42,843 nucleotides of DNA from a virus: positions 1 to 42,843 of IMG/VR virus record IMGVR_UViG_3300048597_000073. One strand, written 5' to 3'. Positions 1,424 through 42,843 of this stretch are shown here, in pieces. The notes beneath the pieces are model-generated. The model was not told where the DNA came from, did no database searches, and was given only the letters and a program-made list of their open reading frames with translations. Within the stretch, counting starts at the first letter, position 1. The number at the start of each line of letters is the position of its first letter. The translations under genes and the position numbers were made by a program.

Positions 1424-2077
1424 TCAGGCGGCGCGGCGCAGCGCGCGGATGCTGTCGGCCTCGACGCGTGCCTCGGCGATCAGCTTCTCGACGCGTGCGC
1501 GGTGGTCGGCCATGTCGAAGTCGGCGGGCGTCACGCGCTTGCGGAAGAGCTGCAGGTCCTCCGGCAGCCGCGGGTCGAAGCTGATGAAGTCGAGCCAGTC
1601 CGCGCCGGTGACCCACAGCTCGTGCGTCACCTGGGCGACGTACTCGGACGGCACGACGCCGTCGCGGATGTAGCCGATGTGGATGGCGGTCTTCGGGCAC
1701 TTCAGCTGCACCATGCCGACGATCCGGTCGCCCGACAGCACGACGCCGTCCGGCGAGCAGCCGGCCGCGCAGTCGAGCCGCTCGACAAACCCGACGCGCT
1801 CGAGCAGCTGGCCGGTCGCGGCCTCGTACGCTTCGAACGCGTCCGGCTCCAGTTCGATGCCGCGCTTCATTTCGAACGACTGGTAGCCGTCCTCCTCGAT
1901 CGCGCCGCCCGTCACGAGCTCGACAGCGATCGTCACGCGCAGATCGCGCCGGGCGGCCGGCTCGCCGCCGCTCTTCAGCTTCGCGTACAGGGCGTCGGCG
2001 ACCGAACCCGTGACCTTGGCCGCGCGCGCCTGGTACCACTCCGGCGTGCGCTGTTCGATGCGGTGGATACGGATCAC
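1424..2077 (-). CDS. YqaJ/lambda-exonuclease-like viral recombinase
   Basis: 217 residues. The GTG start at 2077 overlaps the TGA of the ERF gene (GTGA), which fixes the start. The protein carries the YqaJ nuclease layout: a QRTPEWYQARAAKVTGS N-terminal segment, GCSPDG at 106-111 (metal-binding D110), the strand/ExK region at 122-128, then EYVAQVTHELWVTG. In the ExK motif the family's acidic residue is Gln (VQLKCP, Q124; codon CAG near 1706-1708), whereas K126 is kept. The family resects dsDNA 5' to 3' to make tails for the annealing protein. With ERF beside it, this is a two-component recombination module like lambda Exo/Beta. The Glu-to-Gln change leaves catalytic activity uncertain. Confidence 0.85.
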   Translation of the reverse strand: MIRIHRIEQRTPEWYQARAAKVTGSVADALYAKLKSGGEPAARRDLRVTIAVELVTGGAIEEDGYQSFEMKRGIELEPDAFEAYEAATGQLLERVGFVERLDCAAGCSPDGVVLSGDRIVGMVQLKCPKTAIHIGYIRDGVVPSEYVAQVTHELWVTGADWLDFISFDPRLPEDLQLFRKRVTPADFDMADHRARVEKLIAEARVEADSIRALRRAA

Positions 2078-2871
2078 TGCTGCTCTCCCTTTGCCCGCGC
2101 CTTCTGGCCTTCCCACCAGTCGCGGTGGTGCTTCAGGATCAGCTGGCGCGTCGGCTCGGTGAGCCCGCGCCACACGTTGCTGATCTCGTCCCAATCGCCG
2201 GCCTCGGTGATCGCGAGTTTCGCGTCGGAGGGGATCTCCGGCGCCTGCGCCGGCGCGCCCGAGTGGCTGCTGATGCCTGCGCCGCGTCCGTCGTCGTCGA
2301 CGTCGCGCATGTCGGCCGTCGTGAGACCGGTCACCGCGAGCAGCGTGTACCGCTGCAGGTAGGTGACTGCAGAGCCGAGCTGCTGGATGCTGTTCTTGTT
2401 GCCGGAGTCGTCGCGGCTCGCGTGCATCGACACGCGCTCGCTGTGCCCGGCCGCGTGGGTGAGGATGCAGGTCACGCGGATCGCGCCGTTGTCGGCCTGC
2501 TCCACGTCCCAGCGGTGCGACAGACCGTGCGGCGCGAGCGCGGCGGTGATCTTGTTCGTGACCTCGTCGTGCGTGGCGTGCCGGTACGTGGTCCGACCCT
2601 TCGACGTCGCGAAGTCGACGAGCTTGTTCTTGACGATGGCCGGCGGGTTCGCCTTGAACGCGGCCGTCGCGGCGTCGAACGCTTTGCGGGCTTCGTTCGC
2701 CTCCCACCGCTGCTGCAGCGCCATCAGCTGCTCGAGCTTCTGCAGGTCAGCCCCCTGCGAGACGGCGACCTGCAGCATGTGCATCGGCGTGACGGGGCCG
2801 GCGGGTAGCGCCGGGGCGGGATCGGGCTGCGCGAGCGCGCGTCGATCGTTGACGATGAGTTCCTGCGGCAT
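2074..2871 (-). CDS. erf: ERF-family single-strand annealing protein
   Basis: 265 residues, ATG at 2871 with GGGGA about 8 bases upstream. The core at about residues 40-190 matches the ERF superfamily: EARKAFDAATAAFKANPPAI, then KGRTTYRHATHDEVTNKI, a CILTHAAGHSE strand, and the signature QQLGSAVTYLQRYTLLAVTG (163-182). The last ~70 residues are hydrophilic, as is usual for ERF C-termini. It would pair complementary single strands made by the adjacent exonuclease and could circularise or recombine phage DNA after entry. The downstream gene starts inside its stop codon, so the two are translationally coupled. Confidence 0.92.
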   Translation of the reverse strand: MPQELIVNDRRALAQPDPAPALPAGPVTPMHMLQVAVSQGADLQKLEQLMALQQRWEANEARKAFDAATAAFKANPPAIVKNKLVDFATSKGRTTYRHATHDEVTNKITAALAPHGLSHRWDVEQADNGAIRVTCILTHAAGHSERVSMHASRDDSGNKNSIQQLGSAVTYLQRYTLLAVTGLTTADMRDVDDDGRGAGISSHSGAPAQAPEIPSDAKLAITEAGDWDEISNVWRGLTEPTRQLILKHHRDWWEGQKARAKGEQQ

Positions 2872-2890: not shown

Positions 2891-3094
2891 TTAGAAAACG
2901 TGCTCGTCGACGTAGCGGCGCTGCACGGCGGTGTGATGCGGCGGCGGAAGTACCTCGTCGGCGACCCGGCGCGCCATCGGCCGGCGCGGCCAGCGACGAC
3001 GCACGAGCGGGCGCAGCGTGCGGCGATCGGCCAAGCGGCCGAGCAGCACGACGACGACGCCGATCAGGAAGCCAGCGAGGCGGGCGCGACTCAC
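2891..3094 (-). CDS. Small membrane protein in the early leftward operon
   Basis: 67 residues. The GTG at 3094 overlaps the TGA of the gene before it. Residues 5-20 (ARLAGFLIGVVVVLLG) form one strong hydrophobic segment, followed by a very basic Arg-rich region, so an N-out/C-in membrane anchor with a cytoplasmic basic tail is likely. No family is recognised. It is the second gene after the PL promoter and precedes erf by 19 bp, so it should be expressed early and be repressed in the lysogen. Being short and Arg-rich it could be partly spurious, but the coupling supports it. Confidence 0.55.
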   Translation of the reverse strand: MSRARLAGFLIGVVVVLLGRLADRRTLRPLVRRRWPRRPMARRVADEVLPPPHHTAVQRRYVDEHVF

Positions 3095-3390
3095 GGCCGC
3101 ACCGCGAAGACCGACGCGACGCCGAAGCGGCTTTCGTCCGTCTCAGGCGAACGAAGCGCCTCGCCCGGACGGCCGCCGAGCTGCGGCAGCTCCGCGCGCA
3201 CCTTGCCGAGATTCCCCATCGCTTCGATCACGCCCTGGCAGTACGCGATGGCGAGCGCGTAGTGCAGCTGCTCGACGGCGGCCAGCGGCAGCTGCGCGCC
3301 GACGGTCTGCAGGGTGGTGACGAGGGTGCCGAGGCTACGGTTCGCGTAGTCGCGGGCGGGGGTGTTCGAGGCGGGCATCGTTGGCTCCAT
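3091..3390 (-). CDS. First gene after PL, function unknown
   Basis: 99 residues from ATG 3390. A second in-frame ATG at 3378 has the better ribosome site (GGAG 6 bases upstream) and would give 95 residues. The protein is mostly helical (residues 14-65), soluble, with a disordered C-terminal third; it has no recognisable domain. It occupies the place of lambda N, directly after the repressed early promoter. It is not Arg-rich at the N-terminus like N, so an antiterminator role is not supported by its sequence. Its stop overlaps the start of the next gene. Confidence 0.7.
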   Translation of the reverse strand: MEPTMPASNTPARDYANRSLGTLVTTLQTVGAQLPLAAVEQLHYALAIAYCQGVIEAMGNLGKVRAELPQLGGRPGEALRSPETDESRFGVASVFAVRP

Positions 3391-3415: not shown

Positions 3416-3445
3416 ACGTTACGGCATCCCGTAATACGGTGTCAA
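3416..3445 (-). promoter_or_regulatory. PL-type early leftward promoter
   Basis: Read on the minus strand, a perfect -35 TTGACA (3445-3440) is followed after 18 bases by TAACGT (3421-3416). Transcription would begin about 18 bases before ATG 3390. Both core elements are covered by 16-bp operators. The arrangement mirrors the rightward promoter at 4151-4180. Confidence 0.8.
3419..3434. promoter_or_regulatory. Operator OL1, perfect palindrome
   Basis: The 16-bp site TTACGGCATCCCGTAA has arms TTACGG and CCGTAA around a 4-bp centre and covers the spacer and -10 of PL. It is the best copy of four related sites around the repressor gene. Confidence 0.85.
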
Positions 3446-3458
3446 CGGGATTCCGTAA
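3443..3458. promoter_or_regulatory. Operator OL2
   Basis: CAACGGGATTCCGTAA matches the OL1 pattern, with one perfect arm (CCGTAA). Its centre lies exactly 24 bp from that of OL1, and it overlaps the -35 of PL. Confidence 0.75.
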
Positions 3459-3500
3459 ATTCGTCGCAATGTGTCCCGAGAAGGGTTGCGGGGGTGCGGT

Positions 3501-3656
3501 TTAGCGGGACAGCCGGGCGGCGAGGGGGATGAGCGCGAAGGCGCCGATCAGGAGCGCGAGGTTCGTCCAGAAGCCGGGCGGCAGCGAGTAGGCGAGGGCG
3601 CCGAAAGCGATCAGCACGAGAGCGATGATCGCGGCACGCCGGAGGTCGTCGCTCAC
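3501..3656 (-). CDS. 51-residue two-helix membrane protein in the rex position
   Basis: The GTG at 3656 overlaps the TGA of the repressor (GTGA); stop TAA at 3503-3501. The protein begins VSDDLRRAAII. Two hydrophobic segments (about residues 8-23 and 30-47) are separated by a short PPGFW turn, giving a helical hairpin. It would be co-transcribed with the repressor and hence made in the lysogen, the same genetic position as the rex genes of lambda. No homologue is recognised by eye. A role in superinfection exclusion or another prophage-expressed membrane function is an inference from position and topology only. Confidence 0.65.
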   Translation of the reverse strand: MSDDLRRAAIIALVLIAFGALAYSLPPGFWTNLALLIGAFALIPLAARLSR

Positions 3657-4114
3657 GCCTGCGCCCGCGATTCGGCCGGCGCGCGCTTTCGCTTACCAGG
3701 CTTCACCTCGGCCTCCTTCCGGCGCTTCACGAGCGTCCGGATCACCTCGGCCAGTGCGTCGCGCTCTTCTGCCGAGAGCTTCTGCCATTCCCAGCCGAGT
3801 TCCGCCGCGTCCCGGGTGAGGTCGAAACCCCAGAACGTTTGCCGATCTGCGAGGGCCACCGGCGGCGCGTCGCGGACCTCGCGAGCGTCGGCGGATCCGC
3901 GGCCGGAGAGCAGCCACTCGGCGCTGGTCTGCAGCTGCTCGGCGATGACGTGGATCGGCACCTTCGCCGTATTCACGATGCGGCCGTTCTCCCAGTCGGC
4001 GAGCGTGCTGTACGGCATGCCCACCAAGCCGGCGAAGACGCGCCGGTCGATCTTGAGCGCCTCGCGACGCGCGCGTGCGCGTTCGCCGGGCGTGCGGGTA
4101 TCAGGAGAAGCCAC
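3653..4114 (-). CDS. CI-like phage repressor, no autoprotease domain
   Basis: 153 residues from the GTG at 4114 (other starts upstream would run into the operators). Residues about 26-47 form a helix-turn-helix of the HTH_3/XRE type (RRVFAGLVGMPYSTLADWEN), followed by the helix EQLQTSAEWLLSGRG typical of this group. The remaining ~80 residues are helical and very basic at the C-terminus (KRRKEAEVKPGKRKR). No S24/LexA-like Ser-Lys protease domain is present and the protein is too short to hold one. It lies between two operator pairs and is divergent from the Cro-like gene, the standard immunity layout. It should repress PL and PR and may control its own promoter. Confidence 0.85.
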   Translation of the reverse strand: MASPDTRTPGERARARREALKIDRRVFAGLVGMPYSTLADWENGRIVNTAKVPIHVIAEQLQTSAEWLLSGRGSADAREVRDAPPVALADRQTFWGFDLTRDAAELGWEWQKLSAEERDALAEVIRTLVKRRKEAEVKPGKRKRAPAESRAQA

Positions 4115-4137
4115 AACTGCATCATGACGGGCTTCCG

Positions 4138-4153
4138 TAACGGAATGCCGTTG
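4138..4153. promoter_or_regulatory. Operator OR2-type site
   Basis: TAACGGAATGCCGTTG matches the operator pattern (ACGG-N4-CCGT core) and overlaps the -35 of PR. It also lies just upstream of the repressor start, so it could control the repressor's own transcription. Confidence 0.75.
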
Positions 4154-4180
4154 ACAGTCGATTACGTAATCCCGTAATTT
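4151..4180 (+). promoter_or_regulatory. PR-type early rightward promoter
   Basis: TTGACA (4151-4156), 18-bp spacer, TAATTT (4175-4180). The initiation codon of the Cro-like gene (4188) lies 7 bases after the -10, about where transcription should begin, so this mRNA is predicted to be leaderless. The promoter and its two operators mirror PL. Confidence 0.8.
4162..4177. promoter_or_regulatory. Operator OR1-type site
   Basis: TTACGTAATCCCGTAA differs from the perfect palindrome at one arm position. It covers the spacer and part of the -10 of PR; its centre is 24 bp from the neighbouring operator at 4138-4153, the same spacing as the left pair. Confidence 0.8.
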
Positions 4181-4187
4181 CGCGTCT

Positions 4188-4412
4188 ATGAGCACATGGG
4201 CGCAGCGAATTCGGGACCTGCAGGCCGCCGGAATGACGTTCCAGGCGATCGGCGAGGAAATCGGCCTAGCGACGTCCTCGGTCGGAGACATCGCCAACGG
4301 ACGCAGCTCGTCCCCCCGCGGCGAGGCGGCCATCAAGCTGCACGCACTGCACCAGCTCCGCTGCGGATCGCTGGGCGGAGGCTCGTCTGCGTCGCAGGCC
4401 GTCCCCCAGTGA
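4188..4412 (+). CDS. Cro-like helix-turn-helix protein
   Basis: 74 residues, ATG at 4188. Residues 16-40 form a helix-turn-helix (MTFQAIGEEIGLATSSVGDI), followed by a short helix and a Ser/Gly-rich tail. It is the first gene of the rightward early operon, opposite the repressor, which is the position of cro. There is no Shine-Dalgarno sequence, since the start codon falls at the predicted transcription start of PR. It would be expected to bind the same TTACGG-type operators and favour lytic growth; that is inference from position and fold. Confidence 0.8.
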   Translation: MSTWAQRIRDLQAAGMTFQAIGEEIGLATSSVGDIANGRSSSPRGEAAIKLHALHQLRCGSLGGGSSASQAVPQ

Positions 4413-4669
4413 GCCTCGAACGCAAGGACGTCCGCTTCAAGCTGGACCCCGAGGTGCACGCCGACCTCGCCGATCTGTGCGACGTCGACGGGCTGGAGCT
4501 CGCCGAGTTCTGCGAGCGGGTCGTGACCGAAGCGGTGCGGAGCCGAGTACATGCGGCGACCGTACTCGCGGCCCGCGTGGCACGTCGGGGAAAAACCGGG
4601 AGCGTCCGGGAGTGCGATCCCGCGCCCGGTGATTCGGGGCGCGATCTTCCCTTCGCGGTGCGGCGCTAG
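4409..4669 (+). CDS. Ribbon-helix-helix-like small regulator
   Basis: 86 residues; the GTG at 4409 overlaps the stop of the Cro-like gene (GTGA). The N-terminal 45 residues (RKDVRFKLDPEVHADLADLC, then a helix ending AVRSR) have the strand-helix-helix pattern of Arc/MetJ-type DNA-binding proteins. The C-terminal half is basic and probably unstructured. It sits in the place of lambda cII, but the fold does not look like CII. A DNA-binding role in the lysis/lysogeny switch or in replication control is possible; no closer assignment can be made. Confidence 0.6.
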   Translation: MSLERKDVRFKLDPEVHADLADLCDVDGLELAEFCERVVTEAVRSRVHAATVLAARVARRGKTGSVRECDPAPGDSGRDLPFAVRR

Positions 4670-4945
4670 ATGCCGCAGAAGTCGCAATTCGCACCGCTGA
4701 ACCGTGCTGGGTCCAGCTTGGCGCAGGACGATTCCTACACCGGCGCGGAGCGGAACAAGCAGCCCGCGACCGTGTACGCCGAGATCCGCTCAGACCGCGA
4801 GCGCGCCGAGCTGCGCCGCGCCGGTATCCGCCGGGCCGAGCAGCAGAAGCGGGCGGCGCTCCGCGCCGAGCTGCAGACCGACGGCGTCGCGCACGGGCGC
4901 CTCGGCCGCGCGTGGCCGACCGTCCCGCGGCGGGGTGGGGCATGA
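4670..4945 (+). CDS. Small early protein, unknown
   Basis: 91 residues, ATG immediately after the stop codon of the preceding gene. It is hydrophilic, with a helical Arg/Glu/Ala-rich segment at about residues 36-72 that could be a coiled coil. No domain is recognised. Its TGA overlaps the ATG of the replication gene (ATGA), so it is translated just upstream of the initiator and may help replication, but the sequence does not show how. Confidence 0.6.
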   Translation: MPQKSQFAPLNRAGSSLAQDDSYTGAERNKQPATVYAEIRSDRERAELRRAGIRRAEQQKRAALRAELQTDGVAHGRLGRAWPTVPRRGGA

Positions 4946-5808
4946 ACTACTTCGAGTTCCACGTCGGCGACTGGGTGAAGGCGACGCGGCACCTCACGTT
5001 GACCGAGGAGGGCGTCTACCTGCGCCTCGTCCTCCGGTACTACGAGGAGCAGGAGCCGCTGCCGGCCGATCTGGCGAAGGTCCAACGGCTCGCCGGTGTG
5101 CGCACCGGACTCGATCGCCGCGCTGTCGAAACGGTGCTCGCGGAGTTCTTCGAACTGCGCGCCGACGGCTATCACCACACGCGCTGCGACGAAGTCCTGC
5201 AGGCCTACGAAAAATTCTGTGAATCGCAGTCCGTCAAGGGCAAAGCGGGAGCCGCGGCGAAATGGTCAGGCAAATCAGGGCGCGAAGATGGCCAGCGGCC
5301 AGCGTCCGGCCAAGCCGCAGGTATGGCCGAAGCATGTCCGGGCGATGGCCTTCCCACTTCCCACTTCCAACCTCCCACTACCCAAGATGGTTCTAACGAA
5401 CCATCTACCAAGACAGCGCGCGTGCCGCGCGTGGATCCGGTCGGCCTCGGATGCGAGTTGCTTCCGAGTCCCGTGCACGCCGCCTGGAACGACTGGATCG
5501 CGCACCGTCGCGAGCGCAAGCACCCGCTCGGCGCGACCGTGCTCCGCAAGCACTGCGAGTTCCTGACCGCGTTCGATCCCGCGACGCAGGTCGAAATCAT
5601 CAACACCTCGATCCGCTCGAACTGGCAGGGCCTGTTCGCGCCGAAGGGAGCAGTCAATGGCCGCCCGCAATCTCGATTCGACCAGACCCGGCAGCACCTC
5701 GACCGACTCATCGCCGAGGCCGAGCGCGAAGAGCTCCCGCTTCTGGCGAGCGATGACGAGCCTGTACGGCCAGCGGTGGGTCGACAGCTACGGATCGGAA
5801 CCGGATGA
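4942..5808 (+). CDS. DUF1376 phage replication initiator-like protein
   Basis: 288 residues from ATG 4942. Residues 1-90 match DUF1376: NYFEFHVGDWVKATRHLT, then LTEEGVYLRLVLRYYEE, a winged-helix-like module found in phage replication proteins. Residues about 105-160 are a low-complexity linker encoded by an iteron-like repeat array. Residues 170-235 (PVHAAWNDWIAHRRERKHPL, then a helix and NWQGLF) form a second conserved helical module of phage replication proteins. It takes the place of lambda O: first large gene of the right operon, followed by a P-like gene overlapping its 3' end. It probably binds the origin within its own gene and recruits a helicase loader. Confidence 0.8.
   Translation: MNYFEFHVGDWVKATRHLTLTEEGVYLRLVLRYYEEQEPLPADLAKVQRLAGVRTGLDRRAVETVLAEFFELRADGYHHTRCDEVLQAYEKFCESQSVKGKAGAAAKWSGKSGREDGQRPASGQAAGMAEACPGDGLPTSHFQPPTTQDGSNEPSTKTARVPRVDPVGLGCELLPSPVHAAWNDWIAHRRERKHPLGATVLRKHCEFLTAFDPATQVEIINTSIRSNWQGLFAPKGAVNGRPQSRFDQTRQHLDRLIAEAEREELPLLASDDEPVRPAVGRQLRIGTG
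5351..5405. other. Candidate replication origin: five 7-bp iterons and inverted repeat
   Basis: Inside the linker of the DUF1376 gene there are five tandem 7-bp units (TTCCCAC, TTCCCAC, TTCCAAC, CTCCCAC, TACCCAA; 5351-5385). They are followed immediately by a perfect 8-bp inverted repeat GATGGTTC-TAAC-GAACCATC (5386-5405). The stretch is visibly less GC-rich than its surroundings. Lambda ori likewise lies as iterons inside the O gene, between the two domains of its protein. Function here is inferred. Confidence 0.6.
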
Positions 5809-38852: not shown

Positions 38853-39981
38853 TTACGGCTACTTGAGACGACCCGAGTAGCAGGTCGGCAACGTTCGAAT
38901 TCAACGGGTTGGCGTTCGCACCTTGCCAGTCCCTTGCCAGTGGCAGCCAGCTCGGGGCGAGCTCGCGGAGCATGCGCTCGATCGCGTCCCGGGCGGCGCC
39001 CATGAAGTCCGGCCGCGCGTGCGCGTAGCGCTCGGTCATCGTGCCGCCGAACCGGTGCGCGAGGAGCGCGGAGACGTCGGCCTCCGGCACCCCGTGCGCG
39101 CGCAGCCAGGTCGCCGTGTACTTCCGGATCCGATACCCCGATCCCGCGACGCCGGCGCGCTCGCAGATCCGCTGCAGCTTCTTCTTCCACTCGCGGATGG
39201 GCCGAATCGTCTTCGTGTGCTTTTCTGAACGCACTACGGGGCCGATGGAGCGGCGCGCCTCCAGGTAGTCGCGCAGGGTAGGGGCGACCGGCGCGATGGC
39301 CCTGCGCTTCTTCGTGATGCGTCGGCCGGGCACCCGGAAGTCGATCATCGTCGGCGCGACGCGGTCCCACGTCAGGTCTGGTACGGCGCCCGGACGGCAG
39401 GCGGTCGCGAGGCAGATCAGCACGAGCAGCCGCTCGCCTTCGGTCTGGCAGGCCTCCAGCACCGCGCGCATTTCCTCAAACGTGAACGGGTCGACGCCAG
39501 CGGTTTCCTCGGCCTCGGGCCGTGCGAGGGGCTTCGTGTCCGGCAGCTCGCCGAGGTCGGCCGCGCGCTTCAGGGCGGACCGGATCACGCCCATGTACCG
39601 AGAGATCGTGCCGGCGCTGCAGCCGAACGCCCGCAGCTGCTCGATGAACCACAGCTGCTTCGACCGATCGAAGCCGGCGACCGTGACGCCGGGCAGGTGC
39701 TCGTTGACGTGCGCCAGCGCGTAGCGGATCGGGTCGCGGGAGGTGCGGCTCTTGCCGTGGTGCTGCCAGTAGCGGGACAGCACGAGCTGAACGGTTACGA
39801 GGTCGGGTCGCTGGTCGCGGGGGCGGTCGAGTTCGAGGACGAGCTTCGCGCGTGCCGTCTCAGCTTCGGCGCGATCGCGCGTGCGAGCCGATCGGCGGCG
39901 TGGGCGTCCAGATTCGTCGGTCCAGCAGACGTAGTAGGTGCCGGGGCGGTCGGGGAAGTCGTTTCGCAGGTAGAAGCGCAC
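38842..39981 (-). CDS. int: Tyrosine integrase
   Basis: 379 residues, GTG 39981. The N-terminal arm-binding part (YYVCWTDESGRPRRRSARTR) is followed by a SAM-like core-binding domain (about 60-150) and the catalytic domain. Catalytic residues: R196 (TACRPGAVPDLTW), Lys in RITKKRR (224-225), R286 in GYRIRKYTATW, H309 (LLAHRFG) and nucleophile Y319 (TERYAH). In the HxxR box the usual His is Tyr283. It integrates the phage at tRNA-Val(GAC) and sits beside its attP. One pair of arm-type repeats lies inside its 3' end. Confidence 0.92.
   Translation of the reverse strand: MRFYLRNDFPDRPGTYYVCWTDESGRPRRRSARTRDRAEAETARAKLVLELDRPRDQRPDLVTVQLVLSRYWQHHGKSRTSRDPIRYALAHVNEHLPGVTVAGFDRSKQLWFIEQLRAFGCSAGTISRYMGVIRSALKRAADLGELPDTKPLARPEAEETAGVDPFTFEEMRAVLEACQTEGERLLVLICLATACRPGAVPDLTWDRVAPTMIDFRVPGRRITKKRRAIAPVAPTLRDYLEARRSIGPVVRSEKHTKTIRPIREWKKKLQRICERAGVAGSGYRIRKYTATWLRAHGVPEADVSALLAHRFGGTMTERYAHARPDFMGAARDAIERMLRELAPSWLPLARDWQGANANPLNSNVADLLLGSSQVAVNDG
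38921..38940 (+). repeat. Arm-type repeats, pair 2, inside int
   Basis: CCTTGCCAG at 38921-38929 and 38932-38940, 11 bp apart, in the same orientation as pair 1. They encode LARDWQG near the C-terminus of the integrase. Confidence 0.7.
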
Positions 39982-42665: not shown

Positions 42666-42843
42666 AGCAGCCGCTCCACGCGCTCGACCCGCCAGCAGTC
42701 CCGCGACCGGTCGCGGAACGACGTTGCTTTCAGGCGCCGGAACGCGGCCTCGATCGCGGCGTCGTCGTCGTCCGCGTTCACGTCGACCTTCCCGTCGTAC
42801 TGCGCGTACGGGCCGGGCGTTGAGCGCATCCACACGCGCCAGC
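42662..42843 (-). CDS. Small phage protein across the circle junction (nearly complete copy)
   Basis: Continuation of the gene described at 1-134: because of the end duplication this copy holds all but the first seven bases, and it ends with TGA at 42664-42662. The C-terminus reads RDRSRDCWRVERVERLL and its stop overlaps the NinB GTG. The full product has 64 residues. Confidence 0.6.
   Translation of the reverse strand, partial: WRVWMRSTPGPYAQYDGKVDVNADDDDAAIEAAFRRLKATSFRDRSRDCWRVERVERLL
42717..42843. repeat. Right copy of 127-bp terminal duplication
   Basis: Identical to bases 1-127; marks a circular sequence. One copy should be removed, leaving 42,716 bp. Confidence 0.95.

Follow-up and report, generated by a model that had tools for sequence, protein, structure and literature searches.

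A probable lambda-type immunity switch with three right and two left operators in a viral contig

The window analysed here is the whole of the virus record IMGVR_UViG_3300048597_000073 (positions 1 to 42,843), a viral contig of 42,843 bases with 70% guanine plus cytosine (GC). Very probably it contains, at 3416-4180, the immunity region of a temperate phage, built as a switch of the lambda type with three operators at the right promoter (PR) and two at the left promoter (PL). The region is bounded by these divergent promoters, PL on the minus strand and PR on the plus strand. The repressor gene and a Cro-like gene diverge from shared operators, where three related dyads (the right set, OR) lie over PR and over a putative repressor promoter, PRM, and a second set (OL) lies over PL, beyond the repressor gene. 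The evidence consists of the promoters, the five dyads and their spacing and, in related loci, of their conservation and left-right co-variation. The elements are listed below, with lengths in base pairs (bp), nucleotides (nt) or amino acids (aa); an operator dyad is the 16-mer TTACGG-N4-CCGTAA, in 6-4-6 form, of which the 12 arm bases are scored.

3416..3421, minus strand: PL -10-like hexamer TAACGT, 18-bp spacer to TTGACA
3419..3434: O_L1, TTACGGCATCCCGTAA, 12/12 arm bases, covers part of the PL spacer and -10
3440..3445, minus strand: PL -35, TTGACA (perfect)
3443..3458: O_L2, CAACGGGATTCCGTAA, 10/12 arm bases, overlaps the PL -35
3501..3656, minus strand: small predicted membrane protein, 51 aa, start overlaps the repressor stop
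3653..4114, minus strand: repressor, 153 aa, HTH_3, DicA-like, GTG start at 4114
4121..4126, minus strand: putative PRM -10, CATGAT, 6 nt 5' of the repressor start
4125..4140: O_R3, TGACGGGCTTCCGTAA, 11/12 arm bases, centre 13 bp from that of O_R2
4138..4153: O_R2, TAACGGAATGCCGTTG, 9/12 arm bases, overlaps the PR -35 and, by 3 bp, O_R3
4151..4156, plus strand: PR -35, TTGACA (perfect)
4162..4177: O_R1, TTACGTAATCCCGTAA, 11/12 arm bases, covers part of the PR spacer and -10
4175..4180, plus strand: PR -10-like hexamer TAATTT, 18-bp spacer to TTGACA, 7 nt 5' of the cro ATG
4188..4412, plus strand: Cro-like helix-turn-helix (HTH) protein, 74 aa, phrog_6223 at 1e-12, predicted leaderless

The perfect TTGACA hexamers and 18-bp spacers of PL and PR are exactly as the initial annotation had them. 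So are the paired operators, one over the spacer and -10 and the other over the -35, with a centre distance between O1 and O2 of 24 bp on both sides. When up to three mismatches are allowed, the 16-mer alone occurs 14 times in the window against 7.4 expected, a mild enrichment. The window has two copies of the composite site, with O2, TTGACA and O1 in register, and 40 order-2 Markov resamples have none, neither at a strict nor at a loose threshold.

The initial annotation also gave two sites to each side, and took this as the difference between a lambda-like immunity region and lambda itself. The lambda-like arrangement stands, and so do the two sites on the left, but on the right there are three, the third being the conserved O_R3. 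The two sides had further been described as alike outside the operators, which is not the case: there, and outside the -35, only 14 of 55 positions are identical, against 30 of 35 inside. The repressor and the small membrane gene do lie between the promoters. The membrane protein has no homologue among the related loci compared, and from this follows that its gene is accessory and stands outside the module; that it acts in superinfection exclusion is only a guess.

Conservation and co-variation in related loci

Relatives were sought among viral contigs both by DNA pattern and by protein. The pattern TTGACA-N5-TTACG-N5-CCGTAA gave 10 loci, 8 of them with the paired operators or the whole arrangement; the other two (L003 and L006), in which the second operator is absent, were taken as chance matches. 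In L004 and L009 the pattern matches at both promoters, in mirror orientation. A second pattern, offset by one base, gave 11 further loci, in which the left spacing is mostly 23 bp. The protein search used a Cro alignment alone, built from the first set of loci, and gave 24 viral loci. About half of their contigs were already known from the pattern and the remainder were new, and in all 24 the array lies directly upstream of cro. In the family of a Rhodanobacter genome (L012, Rhodanobacter sp. B04), 9 of 233 genomes match Cro at 1e-8. The Rhodanobacter genome also gave a second, weak match to Cro (L049), which has no operators and was set aside. A search for the operator in related prophages had been proposed with the initial annotation, and the array, with its spacing conserved, recurs in more than 30 other prophages and viral contigs.

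Other searches gave nothing to add to these loci. A scan of the viral contigs with the back-translated repressor gave no match, and a search of plasmids gave no match to Cro. The tblastn matches of named phages to the repressor cover its HTH domain only, and regions from Stenotrophomonas BUCT708, Acinetobacter and EBPR were rejected, as no such operators are seen in them by eye.

The set that was counted consists of 34 non-identical regions upstream of Cro homologues, window included. In all 34 the O1-O2 spacing is 23 or 24 bp. When each locus is scored against its own half-site class, which slightly favours the variant loci because the class was assigned by the analyst from the aligned sequences, 32 regions reach 6/8 or more, and 30 reach 7/8 or more, for a third right site at 13 bp from O2, and both arms of O_R3 are conserved. 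A recognisable PL is present in 30 loci, window included, with O_L1 and O_L2 at the same positions; none of these 30 regions has a third site at the corresponding place on the left, where the best score is 4/8. Nearly all relatives have a distance of about 73 nt between the repressor start and cro, and its conservation supports the GTG at 4114 as the start in the window.

The two regions without a third right site at the 13-bp spacing are L018 and L019. L018 (8908-8979) has a dyad at 56 bp from O_R1, where the usual distance is 37, and a longer gap, of 105 nt, separates cro from its repressor start; as a side reading, this dyad may be a displaced O_R3. In L015 (5415-5487) and L021 (88-160) the switch is compact, with related operators on two back-to-back promoters that are separated by only 46 bp; downstream of these, L015 has a more distant Cro homologue.

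The operators fall into at least five half-site classes. ACGG is found in most loci, ACGA in L039, L045 and L057, ATGG in L053-L055, ACAG in L052 and ACCG in L056. This last locus, from a genome of 69% GC, has its fifth-class operators, TACCG..CGGTA, upstream of cro, and no PL was found within its available DNA. In the variant phages with a visible PL (L039, L045, L052, L055 and L057) the left half-site carries the same change as the right. Agreement between left and right sites, taken over arm positions 3-6, is 0.90, compared with 0.84 in permutations, of which 0 of 2000 reach the observed value, a result that still includes shared ancestry. By eye, the motif in the recognition helix of the repressor also tracks the operator class, with SYTGL in ACGA and PYPTLAG in ATGG loci, while no clear tracking is seen in the Cro helix. 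The conservation and the co-variation strongly support the claim of the initial annotation that the operators predict immunity specificity.

Predicted messages and occupancy of the operators

The gap between the PR -10 and the ATG of cro is 7 nt in the window and in most relatives. L016, L017 and L023 keep this 7-nt gap, with a -10-like TACACT, although their O1 is shifted by 3 bp in the direction away from cro. The relatives also share a TAnAAT-like hexamer on the repressor strand, 6 nt ahead of the gene start, and no -35 is found at the putative PRM of the window or of the relatives. Of 34 cro genes, 4 have a Shine-Dalgarno-like 4-mer in front of them, which in each case lies within GTAGGAT at the -10; of 33 repressor genes, none has one. 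Since both genes start 6-7 nt after a -10, usually without a Shine-Dalgarno sequence, both messages are predicted to be leaderless. In front of the first PL gene there is usually a leader of 50-80 nt and often, as read by eye, a GGAG-like motif.

Suppose now that the repressor message starts at 4114. The centres of O_R3, O_R2 and O_R1 are then about 18.5, 31.5 and 55.5 bp upstream of this start. In lambda the same sites are about 19, 42 and 66 bp upstream of the PRM start. From this follows that O_R3 is placed as in lambda, while O_R2, given the predicted start, would be about one turn too close for activation of PRM in the manner of lambda.

As for occupancy, we infer which protein takes which site. 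Dimers of the repressor would bind O_R1 and O_R2 at PR and O_L1 and O_L2 at PL, covering the -10 and -35 of both promoters, and dimers 24 bp apart may cooperate. Such occupancy would shut off cro and replication, which depend on PR, as well as the erf and exonuclease genes, which depend on PL. In the lytic state the Cro-like protein would bind the same dyads, most usefully O_R3, where, sited on the putative PRM, it would block the synthesis of repressor. O_R3 and O_R2, which overlap by 3 bp, would be hard to fill together.

No S24 peptidase domain, the domain for self-cleavage stimulated by RecA, was found by domain search in the repressor of the window. It scores above cut-off in the repressors of L004, L005, L014 and L053, which have the same architecture, and just under it in L051. 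Repressors that differ in their C-terminal part are thus paired with one and the same operator architecture.

These observations suggest, as a tentative proposal with somewhat the better chance of being wrong, a lambda-like switch without the self-activation of the lambda repressor. In such a switch O_R2 and O_R3 would be occupied in mutual exclusion. The repressor would hold PRM down, since O_R2 is about 32 bp upstream of its putative start, over the missing -35. Immunity would be shared across induction types, since the same operator class is served by self-cleaving and by non-cleaving repressors, so that prophages with different induction rules would be immune to one another.

Several points weigh against a lambda-type switch in this region. 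Protein binding and transcripts are here predictions from sequence, and the -10 hexamers of PL and PR are weak, each with 3/6 of the bases of TATAAT. The operator classes are few and the phages related, and no named phage with the module was found in the GenBank set. One could also ascribe the symmetric repeats to chance, or to base composition in a phage of 70% GC. The loose 16-mer, only about twice as frequent as expected in the window, would agree with this, but composite sites are absent from the simulations, and exact spacing and operator class are kept across diverged phages, so that chance is hardly credible.

The dyads might instead serve one protein only, for instance the repressor, with the Cro-like protein reading another site or O_R3 alone. 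This is unlikely, and yet there is precedent, since the Cro of PY54 binds a single site, OR3 (PMC4488713), and by eye it is the helix of the repressor, and not clearly that of Cro, that follows the operator class. Every viral locus selected by Cro does have the array next to its Cro homologue, which does not tell the sites that Cro occupies. Still less probable is that O_R3, rather than being a separate operator, is a by-product of an extended array of half-sites, ACGG..CCGT.ACGG..CCGT, bound by a continuous oligomer. The four half-sites are indeed tightly packed, and the junction of O3 and O2, CCGTNACGG, is itself a dyad, but O3 does not differ from the other sites in its 6-4-6 form, and conservation extends to both of its arms.

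Flanking operons

The genes around the switch that bear on its function are the following.

1424..2077, minus strand: YqaJ exonuclease, PL operon
2074..2871, minus strand: Erf-like single-stranded DNA annealing protein, PL operon
3091..3390, minus strand: first PL gene, 99 aa, unknown, with leader and GAGG
4409..4669, plus strand: second PR gene, 86 aa, transcriptional regulator phrog_7146
4912..5808, plus strand: DUF1376 primosomal / replication initiation-like protein, PR operon
39013-39483, minus strand: tyrosine integrase

Leftward from the switch the order is the 99-aa gene, a 67-aa gene, the Erf-like gene, that of the YqaJ exonuclease and one whose product has a dATP/dGTP pyrophosphohydrolase domain. 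Recombination genes lie on the repressor side and replication genes on the cro side. The product of the last leftward gene (131-1396, 421 aa) has the pyrophosphohydrolase domain in its C-terminal part, and its N-terminal part matches phage families without assigned function. The contig also encodes terminase, tail, lysis, methyltransferase and NinB-like genes, and with this gene set and the integrase the virus looks temperate. Its first 127 bases or so recur at its end (1-127 and 42717-42843), and this direct terminal repeat makes it probable that the contig is circular or circularly permuted.

Known switches and significance

With lambda the region shares divergent repressor and cro genes, three OR sites, dyads over the -35 and -10 of PR and PL, and recombination genes to the left with replication genes to the right. 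The distance between O_R1 and O_R2 is 24 bp in lambda, as in the window. In contrast to lambda there are two OL sites, and in neither the window nor the other 29 PL regions is there a set of three that would permit an O_L3-O_R3 loop; the window repressor is without the self-cleavage domain; and O_R3 and O_R2 are 13 bp apart and overlap. In lambda this last distance is about 23 bp. Like short repressors of the DicA type, the window repressor, at 153 aa, has an HTH domain only, and DicA is its best NCBIfam match (3e-8), but its 33 bits are far under the curated cut-off of 101 for that subfamily (NF007257).

The 3+2 sites and the leaderless messages have precedents. In PY54, of the N15 / phiKO2 / PY54 immB group, cI and cro are leaderless (PMC4488713). 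N15 likewise has 3+2 operators and lacks the third left site, but its operators are of a TTATA type, 22 and 27 bp apart with none overlapping (the analyst's reading of the N15 sequence). The HTH of its repressor matches the repressor profile in a two-protein search, and its Cro gives no match to the Cro profile of this group. In 933W, compared by description, OL3 is absent and there are five operators in all (PMC5977221, PMC3317979), hence three at OR as here, though of 15 bp. From the absence of OL3 in both 933W and N15 follows that this site is not required for the wider lambdoid kind.

The unusual parts are the overlapping O2 and O3 and the geometry of PRM. A limited search of the open-access literature found no described switch with such an overlap, and nothing relevant on such a switch in Rhodanobacter, Xanthomonas or Stenotrophomonas. 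For a group of temperate phages without a match in the collection of named phages searched, the region would provide a conserved immunity code that can be read from the DNA. Shared immunity among prophages would be predictable from sequence alone, over five or more half-site classes. Should the overlapping geometry work as proposed, it would represent a naturally occurring form of the lambda switch whose sites, instead of being separate, exclude one another.
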